A DNA stretch of 64,000 nucleotides from Terriglobia bacterium (GTDB lineage Bacteria > Acidobacteriota > Terriglobia > Acidiferrales > UBA7541). Within the stretch, counting starts at the first letter, position 1. Each line of letters starts with the position of its first letter. The stretch is from positions 806,001 through 870,000 of the forward strand of contig JAIQGG010000002.1 in assembly GCA_020072785.1 (NCBI GenBank). Direction: 5' to 3'. The notes below the pieces were generated by a model. The model saw nothing but the letters and a program-made list of their open reading frames with translations. It did not search any database and was not told the DNA's origin. Both the position numbers and the translations under genes were made by a program. This document shows, piece by piece, positions 772 through 60,650 of the stretch.

Positions 772-821
772 CCCGGCGGTCGCAGCACCGCCCGCGACGC
801 AGCCAGGAAGGATGCGGCGGG

Positions 822-3107
822 TTAGAAGTCGAAGAGGTAGGAGAACTTGACGAAGAATTCGTTGCCCAGGTCGGAGGGGTGCCTGGGGTTAAGCAGGGGA
901 AGGGGGGAGAGCTGGAAGATGTCGTGGCTCTTCTGGTAGTTGTAGCCGGCGAGAAAGGCGGAGCGCGCGGTGAAGTCGTAAGCCATGATGGAGTTGACGT
1001 TCCAGCTGCCCCCGTGGCGGTTGTTTTCGAACTGCGCGAGGATGCGGGCGCGCCATCGGGTGGTGAACTGCTGGTTGATGCGGGTGATGAGCAGGCGGCG
1101 GTCTTGGAAGGGCGTGCCGTCCATGAGAAATTCGCGGTCGTACACGCCGCTGAACTGCACTTTAGTGCGGCCAAAGGCGTGGGCCAGCAGGCCCAGTTCG
1201 TGGCGCTGTTCGCGGCCGTAAAAATTCTCGTGGAACTCGGCTACTTTGCGGTGTACGAAGAGGTAAGTGAAGGAGACCGGCCGGTTTTCGTTGGTGGTGA
1301 TCTGGAATTGCTCGCGCGGCTGGATGTAGACGCGCGTGGGAACCAGCAGGGCGAAATTGGGCGTGAACTGGTTATAGCGCGTGCGGTCGTAGGAGTAGTC
1401 CACGGTCACCGTCCAGAAATTCTTGAGTTGCGCTTTCACGAGGGCATCGCCGCCGGCCCCCTGGAGCAGCCCGGCGGTGTCGCTGAGGGTGTCATAGTTC
1501 AGCTCGAAAAAGAGCTGGCGGATGTAGAAGCGGTTGAGGAAGGGCTTGTAGATGAGGTCCAGACCGGCGCGGTGGCGGTCGGTCTCGGGCTCGATACCGA
1601 TCTGGGTGATATCGAAGCCGCGGCCGAGGAACTTGTACGTGGCGATGAGTTCCCACTTTTCGGAGTTGTACTTGGCCAGCGAGCCGAACGTGGCGCGCTG
1701 GATGCCGCCGCTGGAGGTGATCTGGTTCTGGTTGTAGCCGGCCTGGTTCTGCCACGACCAGTGCGGGCCAAGGACGAGGTTGAGGTCCACGGCGTGGACG
1801 CGCTCGGTAGAGCCCACGTCGCCCGCAGCCTGGTCGCGGTTGACGGTGAGGAAGCCGATGGAGGAATTCTTGCCGATGTCGTGGGCCACGCGCAGGACAA
1901 AAAAGTTGGCGCCGGGGGCGAATTCGTTGCGGCGGTTACCCGTCACGGGATCGGTGACCGTGAAATCGCCGGCCTGCGTCCGGGTCTCCATCAGGCCGAT
2001 GGACCACGGCCCCTGCTTGCCGGTGAGTTTGGCGCCGAAGAGGATGCGCTGCGGCTGGCCGTTGCTGAGACCGTTGGCGTCGGTGAGCCGTGCGCCGATG
2101 CGCCGGGAATAGAAAAGATTCATAGGGGTGGAGAAGAAATCGGCGCCCTCGGTGAAAAAGGTGCGCTTTTCCGGAAAAAAGAGTTCGTAGCGCGAGATGG
2201 TGATGTTGATTTCGTCGGCTTCGGTGTCCGCGAAATCGGGATTGAGCGTGGCGTTGATGGCCAGGTTGGGGCCGAGCCCCCAGCGCAGGTCGGCGCCGCC
2301 CTCGTATTTCTGGCCGTTGTCGAGGGGGCTGGGAGCGCCGCGCCGGGTGCGCGCGGAGAAGTACGGAATGACCTCAATGTTGCGCCCGGAGCGCACACCT
2401 TCGATGCCGGTAAGCTCCCCGGCCTTGGAGGGGCGCATGAAGCCGTCGAAGCGCGTAACGATCTGCCAGTTGTCGTTCTCGTTCTTGCGCACGATGTCGC
2501 GGCCCAGATTCAGGCCCCAGCTCTCCCCCAGGCGGAAGCGGATGGACTTGAAGGGGATGGCCACTTCCACGGACCAGCCCCAGTCCTCGAGGCGCGCGGC
2601 GCTCTGCCAGATGCCGTCCCAGGTGCCGTCGAGCGGCTGGCCTTCCTTCATCAGCCCGTCATACTGCACGCCGCGGGCGTTGACGCTGAAGAAGTAGCCG
2701 GTGCGACGGTCGCCGTAAGGGCCGAGGAAGATGTTGATGCTGTCGGAGTTCGTGCGCGCGTCGTGGGTGTCGTAGCGGGCGACGATTTTGCGCGGCTCGG
2801 AATCGTAGCATTTGAACCCGAAATAGAGGTTCTCGTCGTCGTAGAAGAGGAAGGCCTCGGTCTTTTCGCTGGCGGGGGCGCCTTCGCTGGGCTCGGTCTG
2901 CACGAAGTCGGTGATGGGGGTGAGCTGGCTCCAGACGGGCTCGTCGAGACGCCCGTCCACGTGGATGGCGGCGCGCACGTGAGGGGTGGAGGCGGTGTGC
3001 GCGGCGGGAGCCTGCGCGGCCACCGGCAGGGAGACGAAAAGAGCGAGCACGCAGGCCAGGGGCCATGCCGAGCAGGGAGGATTCAGAGCTTGTCTTTCGC
3101 GGCGCAA
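822..3107 (-). CDS. DUF5916 outer-membrane beta-barrel protein with CBM9-like domain
   Basis: A 761-residue exported protein. A hydrophobic signal peptide with VAAQA-type cleavage covers about the first 33 residues. A carbohydrate-binding family 9-like domain follows (about residues 45-230, opening with VDGRLDEPVW). The rest is a long beta-rich DUF5916 region. The last residues (FSYLFDF) end in phenylalanine, the usual beta-barrel insertion signal, so an outer-membrane location is inferred. No enzymatic role is known for the family. The start at 3107 is TTG without a clear ribosome binding site, so the exact N-terminus is uncertain. A TATACT box (3138-3143, minus strand) lies about 30 bases upstream. 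Confidence 0.85.
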   Translation of the reverse strand: MRRERQALNPPCSAWPLACVLALFVSLPVAAQAPAAHTASTPHVRAAIHVDGRLDEPVWSQLTPITDFVQTEPSEGAPASEKTEAFLFYDDENLYFGFKCYDSEPRKIVARYDTHDARTNSDSINIFLGPYGDRRTGYFFSVNARGVQYDGLMKEGQPLDGTWDGIWQSAARLEDWGWSVEVAIPFKSIRFRLGESWGLNLGRDIVRKNENDNWQIVTRFDGFMRPSKAGELTGIEGVRSGRNIEVIPYFSARTRRGAPSPLDNGQKYEGGADLRWGLGPNLAINATLNPDFADTEADEINITISRYELFFPEKRTFFTEGADFFSTPMNLFYSRRIGARLTDANGLSNGQPQRILFGAKLTGKQGPWSIGLMETRTQAGDFTVTDPVTGNRRNEFAPGANFFVLRVAHDIGKNSSIGFLTVNRDQAAGDVGSTERVHAVDLNLVLGPHWSWQNQAGYNQNQITSSGGIQRATFGSLAKYNSEKWELIATYKFLGRGFDITQIGIEPETDRHRAGLDLIYKPFLNRFYIRQLFFELNYDTLSDTAGLLQGAGGDALVKAQLKNFWTVTVDYSYDRTRYNQFTPNFALLVPTRVYIQPREQFQITTNENRPVSFTYLFVHRKVAEFHENFYGREQRHELGLLAHAFGRTKVQFSGVYDREFLMDGTPFQDRRLLITRINQQFTTRWRARILAQFENNRHGGSWNVNSIMAYDFTARSAFLAGYNYQKSHDIFQLSPLPLLNPRHPSDLGNEFFVKFSYLFDF

Positions 3108-4793: not shown

Positions 4794-5990
4794 ATGAAAA
4801 CAATTCAAATTGTTTTTCACGACGCTGGCGGCGGGCACCGCAATGCCGCCCTGGCGCTGCAAAAAATCATCGCGGAGCAGAAGAGGCCCTGGAATGTGCA
4901 ATTGGTGCACCTACAGGAGATCCTCGATGATCTGGACTGGTTCCGGCAGTTGACGGACATCCGCACGCAGGAGTGCTACAACAGCTTGCTGCAGAACGGC
5001 TGGACGCTCGGCAGCACCTGGCTGCTGCGCTTGCTGCAAGCGACCATCCGTGTCTATCACCCTGCGGCGCTCAAGCGCTTGCAAGCCTATTGGGAGCAGC
5101 ACCCGGGGGACCTGCTGATCTCGGTCGTGCCCCATTTCAACCGCGTTCTGCGGGAAAGCTGGCGCGCGGTCCACGGGGAAACGCCGTTCGTCACCATCCT
5201 CACCGATTTGGCCGATTATCCCCCGCACTTCTGGATCGAGAAACAGGAGCAGCATTTTGTCTGCGGCACCGACCGGGCCGTCGAACAGGTGCGCCAGTTC
5301 GGCGGCGAAAAAGCGCAGATCTCCCGCGTCTCCGGGATGATTTTGCGGCCGGAATTCTACGCGCCGGATGATTCCGATCCGCTGGCGCTGCGGCGGGAGC
5401 TGGGACTGCAGGAGGATTTGCCGACGGGCATCGTGCTTTTCGGCGGGCAGGGTTCGAAAGCGATGTACGAGATCACCGAGCGGCTGGATGCAGCGGGGCT
5501 GCCGATCCAGCTCATTCTGATTTGCGGAAAGAACGAGGCGCTGGCGGCGAAGCTGCGCGCCCGGCCGTGGCGCATGCCGGTCCACGTGATGGGCTTCACC
5601 GCGGAAGTACACCGGATCATGCGCGCCGCGGATTTTTTCATCGGCAAGCCCGGGCCGGGGAGCATTTCCGAAGCGATGACGCGCGGCCTCCCGGTGATCA
5701 TCGAGTGCAACGCCTGGACCCTGCCGCAGGAGCGCTACAACGCCGAGTGGATAAAGGAGAAGCGCGTCGGTGTGGTGCTGAAGAATTTCGAGGGGATTGC
5801 CGCGGCCGTTGCGCAGTTCCTCGCGGCGGGGACGCTGGCGCAGTACCGCGCCAACGCCCGAGCGCTTGAAAACCGTGCCGTGTTTGAGATCGCCGAACTC
5901 CTGGCGCAGCTTCTCGCCGGGCAAGGACCGGCGCTGGCTCGCTCCGAAACCGGAAACGCTCCTGCGGCGCATGCTTGCGCACCGGCCTGA
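4794..5990 (+). CDS. MGDG synthase-like (MurG/GT28-type) glycosyltransferase
   Basis: A 398-residue GT-B glycosyltransferase. The N-terminal AGGGHRNAA motif (residues 11-19) and a C-terminal GKPGPGSISEA motif (around residue 287) are characteristic of the MGDG synthase/processive diacylglycerol glucosyltransferase group. The predicted reaction is transfer of a hexose from a UDP-sugar to diacylglycerol or a similar lipid at the inner membrane face. The start is placed at the ATG that gives the family N-terminus MKTIQIVFHDAGGGH. The donor and acceptor cannot be decided. Its divergent partner is the PHP-PAP2 pair, also plausibly lipid-related. Confidence 0.82.
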   Translation: MKTIQIVFHDAGGGHRNAALALQKIIAEQKRPWNVQLVHLQEILDDLDWFRQLTDIRTQECYNSLLQNGWTLGSTWLLRLLQATIRVYHPAALKRLQAYWEQHPGDLLISVVPHFNRVLRESWRAVHGETPFVTILTDLADYPPHFWIEKQEQHFVCGTDRAVEQVRQFGGEKAQISRVSGMILRPEFYAPDDSDPLALRRELGLQEDLPTGIVLFGGQGSKAMYEITERLDAAGLPIQLILICGKNEALAAKLRARPWRMPVHVMGFTAEVHRIMRAADFFIGKPGPGSISEAMTRGLPVIIECNAWTLPQERYNAEWIKEKRVGVVLKNFEGIAAAVAQFLAAGTLAQYRANARALENRAVFEIAELLAQLLAGQGPALARSETGNAPAAHACAPA

Positions 5991-6304
5991 ACCTGGTGGC
6001 CTCTTAGCTGCATTTCACGGATGAAAATTCCAACGATCTGCTGCCTCCGCTCTGGATATGCCCGCTCAGAACCGGGTAAACCAGTGTAACAAGATGAGGT
6101 ATGGTTAAGGATTGCCGGGAGAAACCTGGCGGGAGAGCGCCAACAGGAGTGCGAGCGCGCACGAAAGACAAAAATCGATAAGCCACGTGAAGTTCCGAAT
6201 TAGAACGCGACCCGGTGGCGCGTGCCGAATTGAACTAACAAAGAAATAAAAGCAGCGGTATGGTGAGATTTCGGCGCCGCTAAGCGCAAGGTTTTAAGGA
6301 CGTT
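5991..6304. other. Intergenic stretch without a recognisable gene
   Basis: About 310 bases, less GC-rich than the flanking genes. I see no open frame with a ribosome binding site and no terminator directly after the glycosyltransferase gene. Its right end probably holds the promoter of the structured RNA and small ORF that follow, but no convincing -35/-10 pair is visible. Confidence 0.5.
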
Positions 6305-6376
6305 ATGAAAAAAGCTGAGAAATGGTATTTGGCCTTGCAGTTGCAAGTTCAGTTGCCGTGGGCGCGTTTCGGTTGA
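6305..6376 (+). CDS. Possible 23-residue leader peptide
   Basis: A small ORF, MKKAEKWYLALQLQVQLPWA then RFG, preceded by AAGGA at a suitable distance. Its last codons overlap the 5' strand of the long closing stem of the RNA at 6361-6518. Ribosomes reaching the stop would therefore disrupt that stem, as in attenuation leaders. There is no sign of conservation to lean on, so this could be chance. Confidence 0.3.
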   Translation: MKKAEKWYLALQLQVQLPWARFG

Positions 6377-6518
6377 CGATCTGAACAGAGAGCCGAGTGA
6401 GGGGGAAGGGGCTTGCTCGGTGCTTTGAACAGGTCGTTCCCACCTGCCTCTGAGAGGGAAGCTAGGATGGATGACCCCACGCTCCGGTGTGAAAACGACG
6501 CCGGAAACGAAACGCGCC
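6361..6518 (+). ncRNA. Structured non-coding RNA, identity unknown
   Basis: A closing stem of 11 perfect base pairs joins GGCGCGTTTCG (6361-6371) to CGAAACGCGCC (6508-6518). Inside it are four further hairpins: GCCGAG/CTCGGT (6392-6397 with 6416-6421), CAGGT/ACCTG (about 6430-6446), CCTC/GAGG (about 6447-6457) and CCGGTGT/ACGCCGG (6484-6490 with 6498-6504). A strong intrinsic terminator begins four bases after the closing stem, and no coding gene precedes it. Together these indicate a transcribed RNA of about 160-200 nt. Size and architecture are compatible with 6S RNA or a lineage-specific RNA, but I cannot recognise a family signature. Confidence 0.6.
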
Positions 6519-6522
6519 TTCG

Positions 6523-6558
6523 GGGGTTCCCGTTCCCAAGCGGGGACCCCTATTTTTT
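6523..6558 (+). terminator. Intrinsic terminator of the structured RNA
   Basis: A 10-bp stem GGGGTTCCCG/CGGGGACCCC (6523-6532 with 6541-6550, one G-U pair) with an 8-base loop, then TATTTTTT. No protein gene lies on the plus strand for 530 bases upstream, so its job must be to end the RNA described at 6361-6518. Confidence 0.85.
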
Positions 6559-6597: not shown

Positions 6598-6619
6598 GTT
6601 GACCGCTTCGCGGTCACAG
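6598..6619 (-). repeat. Dispersed 22-bp palindromic repeat, copy 1
   Basis: An exact copy, on the minus strand, of the unit made of the palindrome TGACCGCGAAGCGGTCA (7-bp stem, GAA loop) flanked by CTG and AC. Identical copies are at 29967-29988 and 52096-52117, with near copies at 41803-41823 and 60631-60650. This one lies just downstream of the HMA-like gene. Confidence 0.85.
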
Positions 6620-6638
6620 ATAAAACTGACCGTTCCGC

Positions 6639-28655: not shown

Positions 28656-29939
28656 TTAGGAGGAGGGGGCGTGGACGCGGTGGATGTCCGCGCCGACGGC
28701 GGAGAGTTTTTCGACGATGCCTTCGTAGCCGCGGTCGATATGGTAGACGCGGTCGATGAGGGTTTCGCCCTGGGCGACGAGGCCGGCGAGGACCAGGGAG
28801 GCGCTGGCGCGGAGGTCGGAGGCGAGGACGGAGGTGCCGGTGAGGGGAGCGGGGCCGCGAACGACGGCGCGGCGGCCGTCGATGGAGATGTTGGCGCCCA
28901 TGCGCATCATTTCGCTGGCGTGGAGGAAGCGGTTCTCGAAGATGGTTTCGGTGATGATGGAGGTGCCTTCGGCCTGAGTGGCCAGGGCCATGTACTGGGC
29001 CTGCATGTCGGTGGCGAAGCCGGGGTACTCCTCGGTGGTGACGTCGGCGGCCACGAGATTTTTGGCGGGGCGGACGCGCATGGTGCCGGGAGTGTCCGTG
29101 TCAATGCGCACGCCGGTCTGGCGAAGCTTCTCGAGGACGGCGCCGAGGTGTTCGGGGGCGCAGCCGGTGAGGAGGAGATCACCGCCGGTGATGGCGCCGG
29201 CGACGAGGAAGGTGCCGGCTTCGATGCGGTCGGGGATGACGGTGTGCTCGGCGCCGTGCAGCTTATCCTTGCCGCGAATGCGCAGGGTGGAGGTGCCGTC
29301 GCCGGAAATGTCCGCGCCCATCTTGCGGAGGAGCTCGAGGAGGTCGGTGATCTCCGGCTCGCGCGCGGAATTTTCGAGGATGGTTTCGCCCTCGGCGAGA
29401 GCCGCGGCCATGAGGATATTTTCCGTGCCGGTGACGGTGATCTTTTCAAAGACGATGTGCGCGCCCTGGAGGCGGCCGCCTTTGGGTACGGCGGCTTCGA
29501 CGTAGCCGTGGCTGGTGGTGATCTCCGCGCCCATTTTTTCGAGGGCGGAGAGATGGAGATCCACGGGGCGGGCGCCGATGGCGCAGCCGCCGGGGAGGGA
29601 GACGCGGGCCTTGCCGAGGCGGGCGACGAGCGGGCCGAGGGTGAGGATGGAGGCGCGCATGGTGCGCACAAGCTCGTAGGGAGCTTCGGCGTCGTTGAGG
29701 GTGGCGGCTTCGATGAGGTAGTCGGTGGCGGGAAATTCCTGAGTGAAGACGTGCGCGGACATGTGCGCGAGGAGTTTGCCCATGGTGATGATGTCGCGGA
29801 CGCGGGGGATGTTGTGGAGCTTGACGGGTTCGGCGGTGAGCAGGGCCGCGGCCATCAACGGCAGCGCGGAGTTCTTGGCGCCGCTGATGGCCACCGTGCC
29901 GTGCAGCGGCTTGCCGCCGCGAATGAGGAATTTGTCCAT
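28656..29939 (-). CDS. murA: UDP-N-acetylglucosamine 1-carboxyvinyltransferase
   Basis: A 427-residue cytosolic enzyme transferring enolpyruvate from PEP to UDP-GlcNAc, the first committed step of peptidoglycan synthesis. K22 (GAKNSALP) and the active-site cysteine C119 in PGGCAIGARPVDLH are present, so it should be fosfomycin-sensitive. The start MDKFLIRGG is chosen from the family. The frame stays open for 16 more codons, but those fall in the repeat at 29967-29988. It lies downstream of murQ on the same strand, with a hairpin-filled 129-base gap between them. Confidence 0.95.
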   Translation of the reverse strand: MDKFLIRGGKPLHGTVAISGAKNSALPLMAAALLTAEPVKLHNIPRVRDIITMGKLLAHMSAHVFTQEFPATDYLIEAATLNDAEAPYELVRTMRASILTLGPLVARLGKARVSLPGGCAIGARPVDLHLSALEKMGAEITTSHGYVEAAVPKGGRLQGAHIVFEKITVTGTENILMAAALAEGETILENSAREPEITDLLELLRKMGADISGDGTSTLRIRGKDKLHGAEHTVIPDRIEAGTFLVAGAITGGDLLLTGCAPEHLGAVLEKLRQTGVRIDTDTPGTMRVRPAKNLVAADVTTEEYPGFATDMQAQYMALATQAEGTSIITETIFENRFLHASEMMRMGANISIDGRRAVVRGPAPLTGTSVLASDLRASASLVLAGLVAQGETLIDRVYHIDRGYEGIVEKLSAVGADIHRVHAPSS

Positions 29940-29966
29940 GGGCCGTCTTTGTACCGTCCTTGATTT

Positions 29967-29988
29967 CTGTGACCGCGAAGCGGTCAAC
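29967..29988 (+). repeat. Dispersed 22-bp palindromic repeat, copy 2
   Basis: An exact copy of the 22-bp unit (TGACCGCGAAGCGGTCA flanked by CTG and AC) in the murQ-murA gap, partly overlapping the next hairpin. Confidence 0.85.
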
Positions 29989-30983: not shown

Positions 30984-31088
30984 CCCGCGGGATGAGCGGA
31001 TGCGCGGGCGATGCGTGGGGAAAGAGTGCGGAAAGTGACATCTTTTGCGGCCGGGGTGGCGGGAGAGGGGAGAAGAAGGAAAAAGATA

Positions 31089-31125
31089 ACGCAGAGACGC
31101 AGAGGGCGCGGAGAAGGACGCAGAG
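31089..31125 (+). repeat. Three copies of ACGCAGAG
   Basis: Two tandem copies (31089-31096, 31097-31104) and a third at 31118-31125 in the gap between the NagZ fusion and murQ. It is a member of the CAGAG-type low-complexity repeats common in bacterial intergenic DNA. Confidence 0.6.
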
Positions 31126-31213
31126 AAAATAGGGGAGGAGGGGAGTTGAGATGCGGAGACCCCGGAAAAAGCGGGCGGGGGCTTGGGAGGAGAGACGCCA
31201 AAAGGAAAGGATG

Positions 31214-41619: not shown

Positions 41620-42114
41620 TCAGTAGATGGGGCGGCCGTCGGCGCGCTGCGGAAGCTGGATTTCGACAGCGTGACCCTTCTTGCCGAAGCGGAAGCGCAC
41701 ACGGTGCAGCGGGCCGACGTCGCGCTCATTCCATTCTGTAATCTCCACGGGTTTTTCCGGGAGTTCCGCCAGCGGCCATTCCAGCGATGCGCCCTTAGTC
41801 TGTGTGACCGCGGAGCGGTCAACGGGGACGAACTTCTGGGGGTCCAGATCGAAGACCTCCTGCTCGCGGAGATCCACGAGCAGGTAGCGCTTCCAGAGGC
41901 GGATGAGGATCCAGCCGCGGCGGCCTTCGGCGTGGTAGGCGTTCCAGGATTTCGGAGGCTCATTGTCGAATTTCAGGATGGCAAATTCCACCGGCTTCCA
42001 GAGGAGCTTCTTTTCCGGGGCCTGCGCGCGCGCGGGGGCGGCCGAAGACAACAGGGCCGCCGCGAGGAGCAGGCAGGCGAAGGGAAGCGGCAGGGAAGCA
42101 GTCCGGGAGCTCAT
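41620..42114 (-). CDS. Exported hypothetical protein
   Basis: A 164-residue protein with a clear signal peptide (about 8-31, ending APARA-Q) and a small beta-rich mature domain with several Trp and Arg residues (NAYHAEGRRGWILIRLWKRY). I do not recognise the family. It carries the segment VDRSAVTQ, which is encoded by a copy of the dispersed palindromic repeat (41803-41823), so the repeat appears to have inserted in frame. The start at MSSRT is chosen for the signal peptide; no ribosome binding site is seen. Confidence 0.6.
   Translation of the reverse strand: MSSRTASLPLPFACLLLAAALLSSAAPARAQAPEKKLLWKPVEFAILKFDNEPPKSWNAYHAEGRRGWILIRLWKRYLLVDLREQEVFDLDPQKFVPVDRSAVTQTKGASLEWPLAELPEKPVEITEWNERDVGPLHRVRFRFGKKGHAVEIQLPQRADGRPIY
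41803..41823 (+). repeat. Dispersed palindromic repeat, copy 3 (inside a coding sequence)
   Basis: TGTGACCGCGGAGCGGTCA followed by AC. It differs from the consensus only by GAA to GGA in the loop. It is read in frame on the minus strand as VDRSAVT in the exported hypothetical protein. Confidence 0.75.
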
Positions 42115-51325: not shown

Positions 51326-52360
51326 TCACTGCGTGAGGTCGCGTTCCCAGACGATGGCCTGGCGGCGGATCTGTGCGTCCGGGCTGAGGTCGATGACGGC
51401 CGCTAGCGCCCGCGCGCTCTCGCCCGCCGCGGCGCAGGCCAGGTCGCGCAGCGCGACGCGGTAGCCTTCGGGCGTTTTTTCCACCGTGGCTTTGGGAAAG
51501 CGCGCCACGGCCAGAAAGCGGCGCGCGGCGTCCGTGTCGCGGGCGGCGTCCAGCGCGGCGGAAGGCTCCGGCTTGAAGATGGTCTGCCCCGCTTCGGGAT
51601 TGAACGATGCTCCGGGCCCGGCGGGAACCGCAACCAGGTGCAGGGCGCTTTCCGTTTCCACGATGCCACGCCAGGCGAACGGCGAGGCGGCTTCCGGAAA
51701 CGCCGCGGCGCGGCGCGCGATCTGGCCGCGATAGGTGCGCGATTCGAGCGCCGCAACCGCGCCGGCGTGAAGAGAAGCGCGCGCACCGGTGTAGGCCAGC
51801 ACCGCAAGCAGCGCCAGCACAGCGCCCGCGCGTCCGCGCGGACCTTTTTCTTTGGCACCGATCTCCTCGGTGACCAGGCGCAGCAACATGGGAAAGAGCA
51901 CGCCGGCCGCAAGGATGGCCAGAATCCACGGGTCAACTCCGCCCAGCCAGTCCAGCGCATAGCGGTGGGTGCGGAACGGCCAGAACAGCGCCACGCCCCC
52001 GGCTTGCGCCAGATCCATCGCCAGGTGCAGCGCTGCGGCCAGAAGGGCCGCGGCGAAGGCGGGAAGAAACCGCGGGAGGTGGTGATCTTTGCTGGCTGTG
52101 ACCGCGAAGCGGTCAACTCCTGGAAAGAGGGCGGAAAGCAGCGCGGCGGCGAAAAGCGCGAGAAGGACGGTTCCCAGGAGGGAGTGCGTCCAGGTATGGT
52201 GCGCGGCGAAATAGGCCGAGGGACCGAAGAAGGCGCTGAGTTCGTCGAGATCGGCGGCGGTGCCCGCAGCGACGGCGGCGACGATCGTGAGGCGCGAGGC
52301 GCGGGGAAAGAACGCCCGCGTGGCGGCGAACGATGCGAGGCCATGTGTGAGCGGATCCAT
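51326..52360 (-). CDS. YdjM-type membrane-bound metal-dependent hydrolase
   Basis: A 344-residue protein. The N-terminal half has several membrane helices with the family histidines (MDPLTHGLASF, AHHTWTHSLLG, AAALHLAMDLAQ). The C-terminal half is a soluble, probably periplasmic domain. The reaction is unknown for the family. Residues VDRFAVTA in the loop after the third helix are encoded by an exact copy of the dispersed palindromic repeat (52096-52117), in frame. It starts eight bases after the lipid kinase gene, so the two are an operon. Confidence 0.78.
   Translation of the reverse strand: MDPLTHGLASFAATRAFFPRASRLTIVAAVAAGTAADLDELSAFFGPSAYFAAHHTWTHSLLGTVLLALFAAALLSALFPGVDRFAVTASKDHHLPRFLPAFAAALLAAALHLAMDLAQAGGVALFWPFRTHRYALDWLGGVDPWILAILAAGVLFPMLLRLVTEEIGAKEKGPRGRAGAVLALLAVLAYTGARASLHAGAVAALESRTYRGQIARRAAAFPEAASPFAWRGIVETESALHLVAVPAGPGASFNPEAGQTIFKPEPSAALDAARDTDAARRFLAVARFPKATVEKTPEGYRVALRDLACAAAGESARALAAVIDLSPDAQIRRQAIVWERDLTQ
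52096..52117 (+). repeat. Dispersed 22-bp palindromic repeat, copy 4 (inside a coding sequence)
   Basis: An exact copy of the unit TGACCGCGAAGCGGTCA with CTG and AC flanks, inside the YdjM-type gene. It is translated in frame on the minus strand as VDRFAVTA in a loop between predicted helices, so the gene stays intact. Confidence 0.9.
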
Positions 52361-55518: not shown

Positions 55519-56009
55519 TTGGCGGGTGGGCCGGGCGATCGCTGGTTTGGTCATCGCAAGATGGCTGGACGGGAGGAAAGTCCGGACACCCTGGTCCAGG
55601 CCGCAAGGCTGGGGACCAGAGGGCAACGCGCCTGGTAACGCCAGGGGGCCGGGTTGGGAACGATCCGGTCACGGACAGCGCCACAGAGAAGATACCGCCG
55701 GCGGAACGCAGCTCGGTGACAGCTCGGAGGAAAACCTTCGAGACGTCTTCGGATCGCACGCTTCGTTTGGTAAGGGTGAAAAGGTGGGGTAAGAGCCCAC
55801 CGCCCCGGTGGCAACATCGGGGGCACGGCAAACCCCGCGTGGTGCAAGGCCAAATAGGAGGGGAGGGCTGGCCCGGCCCGTTATCAACCCTCGGGTAGGC
55901 TGCTGGAGTCACGGCGCGAGCCGTGACCTAGAGGAATGGTCGCCGCAGCGCGCAGGCCGCATTTGGGACGCGCGCCGCACAGAATCCGGCTTACAGGCCC
56001 ATCCGCCAA
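55519..56009 (+). ncRNA. rnpB: RNase P RNA, class A
   Basis: The catalytic RNA that removes tRNA 5' leaders. The P1 stem is formed by TTGGCGGGTGGGCC (55519-55532) and GGCCCATCCGCCAA (55996-56009). The conserved core GAGGAAAGTCCGGAC lies near 55574, with CTAGAGGAATGGTCGCCGC near 55930 and ACAGAATCCGGCTTACAGGCCC at the 3' end. At about 490 nt it is longer than most class A RNAs (350-450), so some peripheral helices must be extended. TTTTTAG follows. Confidence 0.95.
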
Positions 56010-60479: not shown

Positions 60480-60630
60480 GCTGCAAAAGAGATTATTCCA
60501 GCGGAAAGAAAAGAGCAAAGGGCAGAAGAGGAAATACTGCATCCGCGGCCACACCGCCCAAGGGCAGGAAAAGCGCCTGCCGGTGCAACGCGCGGCGCCT
60601 TCGCGTATCCTGATGCCACGCTTTTTATGC

Positions 60631-60650
60631 GTGACCGCGAAGCGGTAAAC
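60631..60650 (+). repeat. Dispersed palindromic repeat, copy 5
   Basis: GTGACCGCGAAGCGGTAAAC, identical to the consensus except for one base (TCAAC to TAAAC). It lies five bases before the ribosome binding site of the FAD oxidoreductase gene, within its 5' untranslated region or promoter. Confidence 0.7.

Follow-up and report, generated by a model that had tools for sequence, protein, structure and literature searches.

The window, i.e. the whole stretch of 64,000 nucleotides that was analysed (C2:806001-870000 of genome G000, which is 3.73 Mb in size and 98.9% complete), carries dispersed copies of a short palindrome. A pattern search recovered these copies at the positions reported in an earlier sequence-only reading: the exact palindrome TGACCGCGAAGCGGTCA is found at 6600-6616 (in reverse orientation), 29970-29986 and 52099-52115, and versions with one mismatch at 41805-41821 and 60632-60648. 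When up to three mismatches are allowed, the window contains 10 strand-wise matches, compared to the 0.41 expected from shuffles. The 22-bp unit originally proposed corresponds to the most conserved part of the repeat; the conserved and mobile unit, however, is 27 bp long, as indicated by the consensus, the spacing in arrays and the comparison of filled and empty sites. As had been surmised, three of the copies are intergenic and two are translated in frame within genes. The intergenic units are located at 6598-6624 on the plus strand and, on the minus strand, at 29962-29988 (upstream of the start of gene 28656-29939(-), with the 3' flank AAGG at 29958-29961) and at 60624-60650 (one stem change, GTTTACC; 3' flank AAGC). 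The genic units are both on the minus strand: the one at 41797-41823 encodes VDRSAVTQT (3' flank AAGG) in gene 41620-42114(-), a 164-aa protein with no Pfam family, and the one at 52091-52117 encodes VDRFAVTAS (3' flank AAAG) in gene 51326-52360(-), a 344-aa protein of the YdjM inner-membrane family (PF04307).

Several other features of the window were identified. A 201-base intergenic block at 6358-6558 is much more strongly conserved than the adjacent genes (94% identity in the related genome G009, 98% in G007), is placed differently relative to its neighbours in G009, and terminates in a hairpin followed by a T-run; it looks like a conserved small RNA, with Rfam matches that are sub-threshold only (BjrC68, E 0.0024). 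A second dispersed repeat, at 31070-31128 (AACGCAGAGACGCAGAGGGCGCGGAGAA...), matches many places in G000 and in many congeners. The region 55523-56009 (+) corresponds to the bacterial RNase P RNA class A (Rfam RF00010, 213.8 bits).

The copy number of the palindrome is far above chance: TGACCGCnnnGCGGTCA is present in 210 exact copies across G000, compared to 0 for the reversed-pattern control, in agreement with the extrapolation from the window to hundreds of copies genome-wide. A consensus derived from 121 units, taken from the initial stretches of G000 and G007, reads GTTGACCGC-TYC-GCGGTCAC, the loop of the representative unit being TTC, followed by a weaker acatAxA, for a total of 27 bp that include a 7-bp stem, a 3-nt loop and an 8-nt tail; one end is fixed at GTT and the other lies after the tail. 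On the opposite strand, where the unit is preceded by the target CCTT, the sequence reads 5'-CCTT-TGTATGTGTGACCGCGAAGCGGTCAAC and the unit ends in CAAC. The predicted hairpin has a folding energy of -7.6 kcal/mol, compared to -1.7 kcal/mol for shuffles (z -4.6), and some compensated stem variants exist: the outermost pair is doubly changed in 14 cases versus approximately 5 expected, in a count uncontrolled for the relatedness of the copies. The units occur singly or as head-to-tail arrays with a 27-bp period; the array step is exactly 27 bp in 31 of the 36 same-strand neighbour pairs, and steps of 26 bp also exist.

Within the genus, the repeat is abundant in three genomes, namely G000 (210 copies), G007 (187; taken as the sister MAG SRVP_26) and G005 (85; taken as AA85), with 0 to 14 copies in the others; outside the genus, copies were detected in 0 of the 25 genomes of other genera. 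In a scan of approximately 85,000 species genomes, a set that possibly does not include G000, the tandem form matched only the MAGs SRVP_26 (JAIQEV01, Terriglobia) and gp2 AA85 (QHYP01); the host is a soil Acidobacteriota relative. No exact match to the unit was found in viral contigs, and no description of the 27-bp repeat was found in the literature. G009 is more similar to G000 (84% identity) than G005 is (78%) in the single gene for which the comparison was made, yet G009 has only 2 copies, which implies that the amplification, or the loss, is recent. In low-copy congeners, a small number of TTGACCGC..GCGGTCA palindromes recur at equivalent positions across several species. Two of these congeners (L026 and L027, near position 1500) have a TTGACCGCGGCGCGGTCA palindrome at a distance of 21 nt before a pyrR-like gene; another palindrome, near an MFS gene, is common to L021 and L025, and its flank is matched in L020 and L028. 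These palindromes may be promoters or operators, and the mobile unit may have descended from them.

Comparison with G007, which is approximately 90% identical to G000 (roughly 100 kb aligned), provides direct evidence of movement and bears out the suggestion of recent spread. Sites that are filled in G000 show clean gaps in G007, for example, GCGCAGGAC[GTTGACCGCTTCGCGGTCACAGCGATA]GATGACGC, where the bracketed part is the gap. Conversely, the window contains an empty target site at 801-832 (minus strand CATCCTT^CCTGGCT, with the junction between 807 and 808), the counterpart of which is filled in G007 (L271:16173), namely CATCCTT-TGTATGCGTGACCGCGAGGCGGTCAAC-CCCGGCT, where TGTATGCGTGACCGCGAGGCGGTCAAC is the 27-mer. 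Arrays differ in length as well: at the place matching the window unit 6598-6624, G007 has 5 units (L271:10420-10547), a difference of 108 bp, or 4 x 27. Among the 19 interpretable loci with differing unit numbers in G000 and G007, tallied by hand, 12 differ by exactly 27, 54, 81 or 108 bp, 5 differ by 26, 28, 29, 52 or 53 bp, i.e. by at most 2 nt from a multiple of 27, and 2 are complex; additional units are found on both sides of the comparison. No target-site duplication was detected at the filled/empty pairs, and the two flanks of the units differ. Units arise at new sites and in arrays by 27-bp steps.

The insertions follow a one-sided target rule. In 764 kb of G000 and 370 kb of G007, many stretches of which were chosen for holding copies, so that densities are biased upward although flank and length statistics are not obviously affected, the right (3') flank is RNNG in 96 of the 124 arrays (background, 17%) and RAKG, that is, [AG]A[GT]G, in 48 (39%; background, 1.5%), the commonest tetranucleotides being AAGG (24), GAGG (12) and AATG (9). 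The left flank of 85 arrays shows no consensus. For a unit in the GTTGACC orientation, [AG]A[GT]G follows immediately on the 3' side; on the complementary strand, this corresponds to C[AC]T[CT] immediately 5' of the unit. In our reading of the alignments, the G at position +4 is already present in the empty allele in 7 of the 8 new-site pairs; this G is therefore part of the target rather than of the element, and insertion is one-sided, into a pre-existing target. The target is similar to the Shine-Dalgarno sequence on the one hand and to the GTTG with which the unit begins on the other. The former likeness would explain why 18% of the intergenic arrays end 5 to 25 nt upstream of a start codon, compared to 3.5% of random intergenic points, and the latter would explain the head-to-tail arrays. 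With respect to GC skew, there is a strand bias (78:46, p 0.005) in the direction expected for insertion into the lagging-strand template, but its significance is lost with larger windows or stricter skew cut-offs.

Most of the arrays (105 of 124) are intergenic even though 79% of the DNA is coding; approximately 15% are genic, with genes predicted by a simple caller that misses those at the ends of stretches. The genic units are found in 14 well-scored genes, in the frames VDRFAVT (14), DREAV (7) and LTASRS (4), all of which are stop-free. Given that 27 nt equal 9 codons and that four of the six frames of the unit are stop-free, genic insertions stay in frame. Among the proteins that carry units are asparaginase, peptidase C26, GyrB, a TonB protein and a pyridoxamine oxidase. 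In asparaginase, two units account for 18 extra residues that are exactly missing in most of the 22 orthologues, and the peptide PVDRSAVTQTKG of gene 41620-42114(-) aligns with orthologues in G009 and G003 that lack exactly 9 residues; the possibility that VDRxAVT is a conserved protein motif is thereby dismissed. In gene 51326-52360(-), the peptide is GVDRFAVTASK, in a region where the alignment of orthologues is loose. The TonB gene has four units in G007 versus one in G000.

The search for the enzyme that moves the unit centred on Y1-like genes. Three PF01797 genes were identified in G000, along with one weak match readable as a RAYT (REP-associated tyrosine transposase) and of a type missing from G007, and one such gene was identified in G007. 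The RAYT type common to G000 (C2:747449 and C1:581615) and G007 (C59:61346) is the sole Y1 gene detected in G007. The anticipated link to a RAYT failed: none of the RAYT genes of G000, G007 and G005 is flanked by the unit, the nearest units being at least 1.3 kb away, except for one weak degenerate match approximately 1 kb from one G005 gene, and the Y1-like genes of G000 and G007 that were read have different hairpins, belonging to other REPs. In G000, RAYT genes (L119 ~5536-6064; L303 ~1100-2210; L246 ~1790-1830) are flanked by the REPs GTAGGCGCCGGGCTTTAGCCCGG and GTAGGGGCACGGCATGCCGTGCCCGT and by a CCCCA..TGGGGCACC hairpin; this genome harbours several REP systems side by side. The class-3 TnpA-Y1 signature was not found by motif in about one fifth of G000. 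The IS91-type Y2 transposase (PF04986) is absent from G000, G007 and G005, and one-ended transposition of the IS91 kind was rejected on this ground.

We propose, with a probability of roughly 0.6, that the repeat is a 27-bp non-autonomous mobile palindromic element that is acted upon in trans by an HUH enzyme of the Y1 type. The involvement of such an enzyme is suggested by the fixed ends, the lack of duplication, the one-sided 4-nt target and the hairpin, the features that in IS608 and ISDra2 are the signature of single-strand HUH-Y1 transposition (PMC6006769). A strand-cutting enzyme of this type, as in IS200/IS605 and REP, would act on the single-stranded hairpin, making one cut 3' of the tetranucleotide target and another at the CAAC end of the unit before rejoining the strands; the target-like GTTG start would make the unit itself a preferred target and would yield head-to-tail arrays. 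Counting against this proposal are the lack of a unit-flanked Y1 gene in G000 and G007, the other hairpins that their Y1-like genes carry, the limited robustness of the strand bias, the single hairpin, which is unlike IS200/IS605, and the few loci that are off at 26, 28 and 29 bp along with the 26-bp array steps. A bolder and less likely reading is that the 27-nt hairpin is a complete mobile unit whose mover falls outside both the known RAYTs and the IS200-type TnpAs, with the one-sided RAKG rule favouring Shine-Dalgarno sequences along with the unit's own end.

Three other explanations have to be weighed. Perfect hairpins provoke template switching, and spread of the hairpin by polymerase template switching or slippage, with no transposase and with arrays built by slippage, fits the tandem steps of one unit, which are the expected slippage product; such a process does not predict single units at new sites with a fixed length, fixed ends and a one-sided 4-nt target, so that slippage accounts for the arrays only, and as a full explanation it appears improbable. 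Still harder to defend is the view that the palindromes are immobile regulatory operators or promoters (with a TTGACC -35-like box) that arose repeatedly and are maintained by selection. The palindromes at matching places across the low-copy congeners (pyrR-like, MFS) and the many copies just before start codons speak for it, but the exact gains of 9 and 18 residues in unrelated genes, the arrays, and the filled/empty polymorphism with exact ends do not, and the genic insertions together with the empty sites largely refute it. Mobilisation in trans by a resident ordinary RAYT, of the type shared by G000 and G007, with the unit as an off-type REP, is the least implausible of the three, albeit unlikely. 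This type is present in both high-copy sisters, and RAYTs or other transposases have been brought up as possible movers of the CGTC REPs (PMC3733652); however, the unit lacks the GTAG guide with which the studied TnpA-REP enzymes cut REP hairpins (PMC8266576). Furthermore, the RAYTs of the shared type have flanking hairpins of their own, with GGGGCACC tails, and RAYTs are plentiful in congeners with zero copies of the unit.

The non-autonomous element moved by an HUH enzyme in trans is thus our preferred reading. To our knowledge, direct evidence for the movement of REP-like palindromes is scarce, and no mover is known for the tagless and CGTC types. Here, the comparison of two genomes that are approximately 90% identical reveals exact filled and empty sites, a unit of constant length, a rule for the target and proteins lengthened in frame, which makes for unusually clear evidence of insertion for an element of the REP/RPE kind. 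Given the exact sites, length and target rule, the mechanism is testable on defined oligonucleotides. The findings also show how a very small element can lengthen conserved enzymes in nine-residue steps and come to lie at ribosome-binding sites.

Among known systems, IS200/IS605 elements and their miniatures resemble the unit in the lack of target duplication and in the tetranucleotide on one side, as well as in the recognition of a single-strand hairpin that is suggested here; the unit differs in being 27 nt long, too short to encode a protein, with one hairpin instead of one per end and with no transposase gene inside or beside it. The class 3 TnpA-Y1-linked structures of Acidobacteria, with approximately 600 copies in Solibacter usitatus and a foot reported as CnGA (PMC6006769), are similar in phylum, high copy number and atypical hairpin, but their foot is not seen in the unit consensus. 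The terminal inverted repeats and target-site duplication characteristic of MITEs are both missing. PARCELs, 25-residue protein repeats that are often found in membrane-targeted proteins (PMC2996958), are likewise palindromic, tandem and coding, whereas the unit contributes 9 residues per copy and its copies are mainly non-coding.

The closest likeness is to the REPs, which comprise GTAG and CGTC super-families, including Rickettsia RPE-4 and RPE-6, with no dedicated transposase for the CGTC families (Di Nocera 2013, PMC3733652), and none was found for the unit either. Like REPs (PMC3733652), the unit is a palindrome of 20 to 40 bp, with more than 100 copies that are mainly intergenic and in some cases genic, but neither a GTAG nor a CGTC tag is present at the hairpin foot, in the consensus or in the left flank; the unit further differs in its 7-bp stem, 3-nt loop and defined one-sided target, and in the head-to-tail arrays of 27-bp period, which the GTAG and CGTC families show rarely or to a negligible extent. 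BIMEs are pairs of REPs in alternating orientation, unlike these arrays. As with RPEs, the palindrome is inserted in frame within unrelated genes, although the CGTC tag of RPE-4 and RPE-6 is missing from its consensus. The REP/RPE assignment made in the sequence-only reading accordingly stands with respect to copy number, in-frame genic copies and recent spread, but not with respect to the BIME arrangement and the RAYT link. The 27-bp repeat is genuine and has been active recently; it is a mobile palindrome and, within the REP/RPE kind, a variant without a tag.
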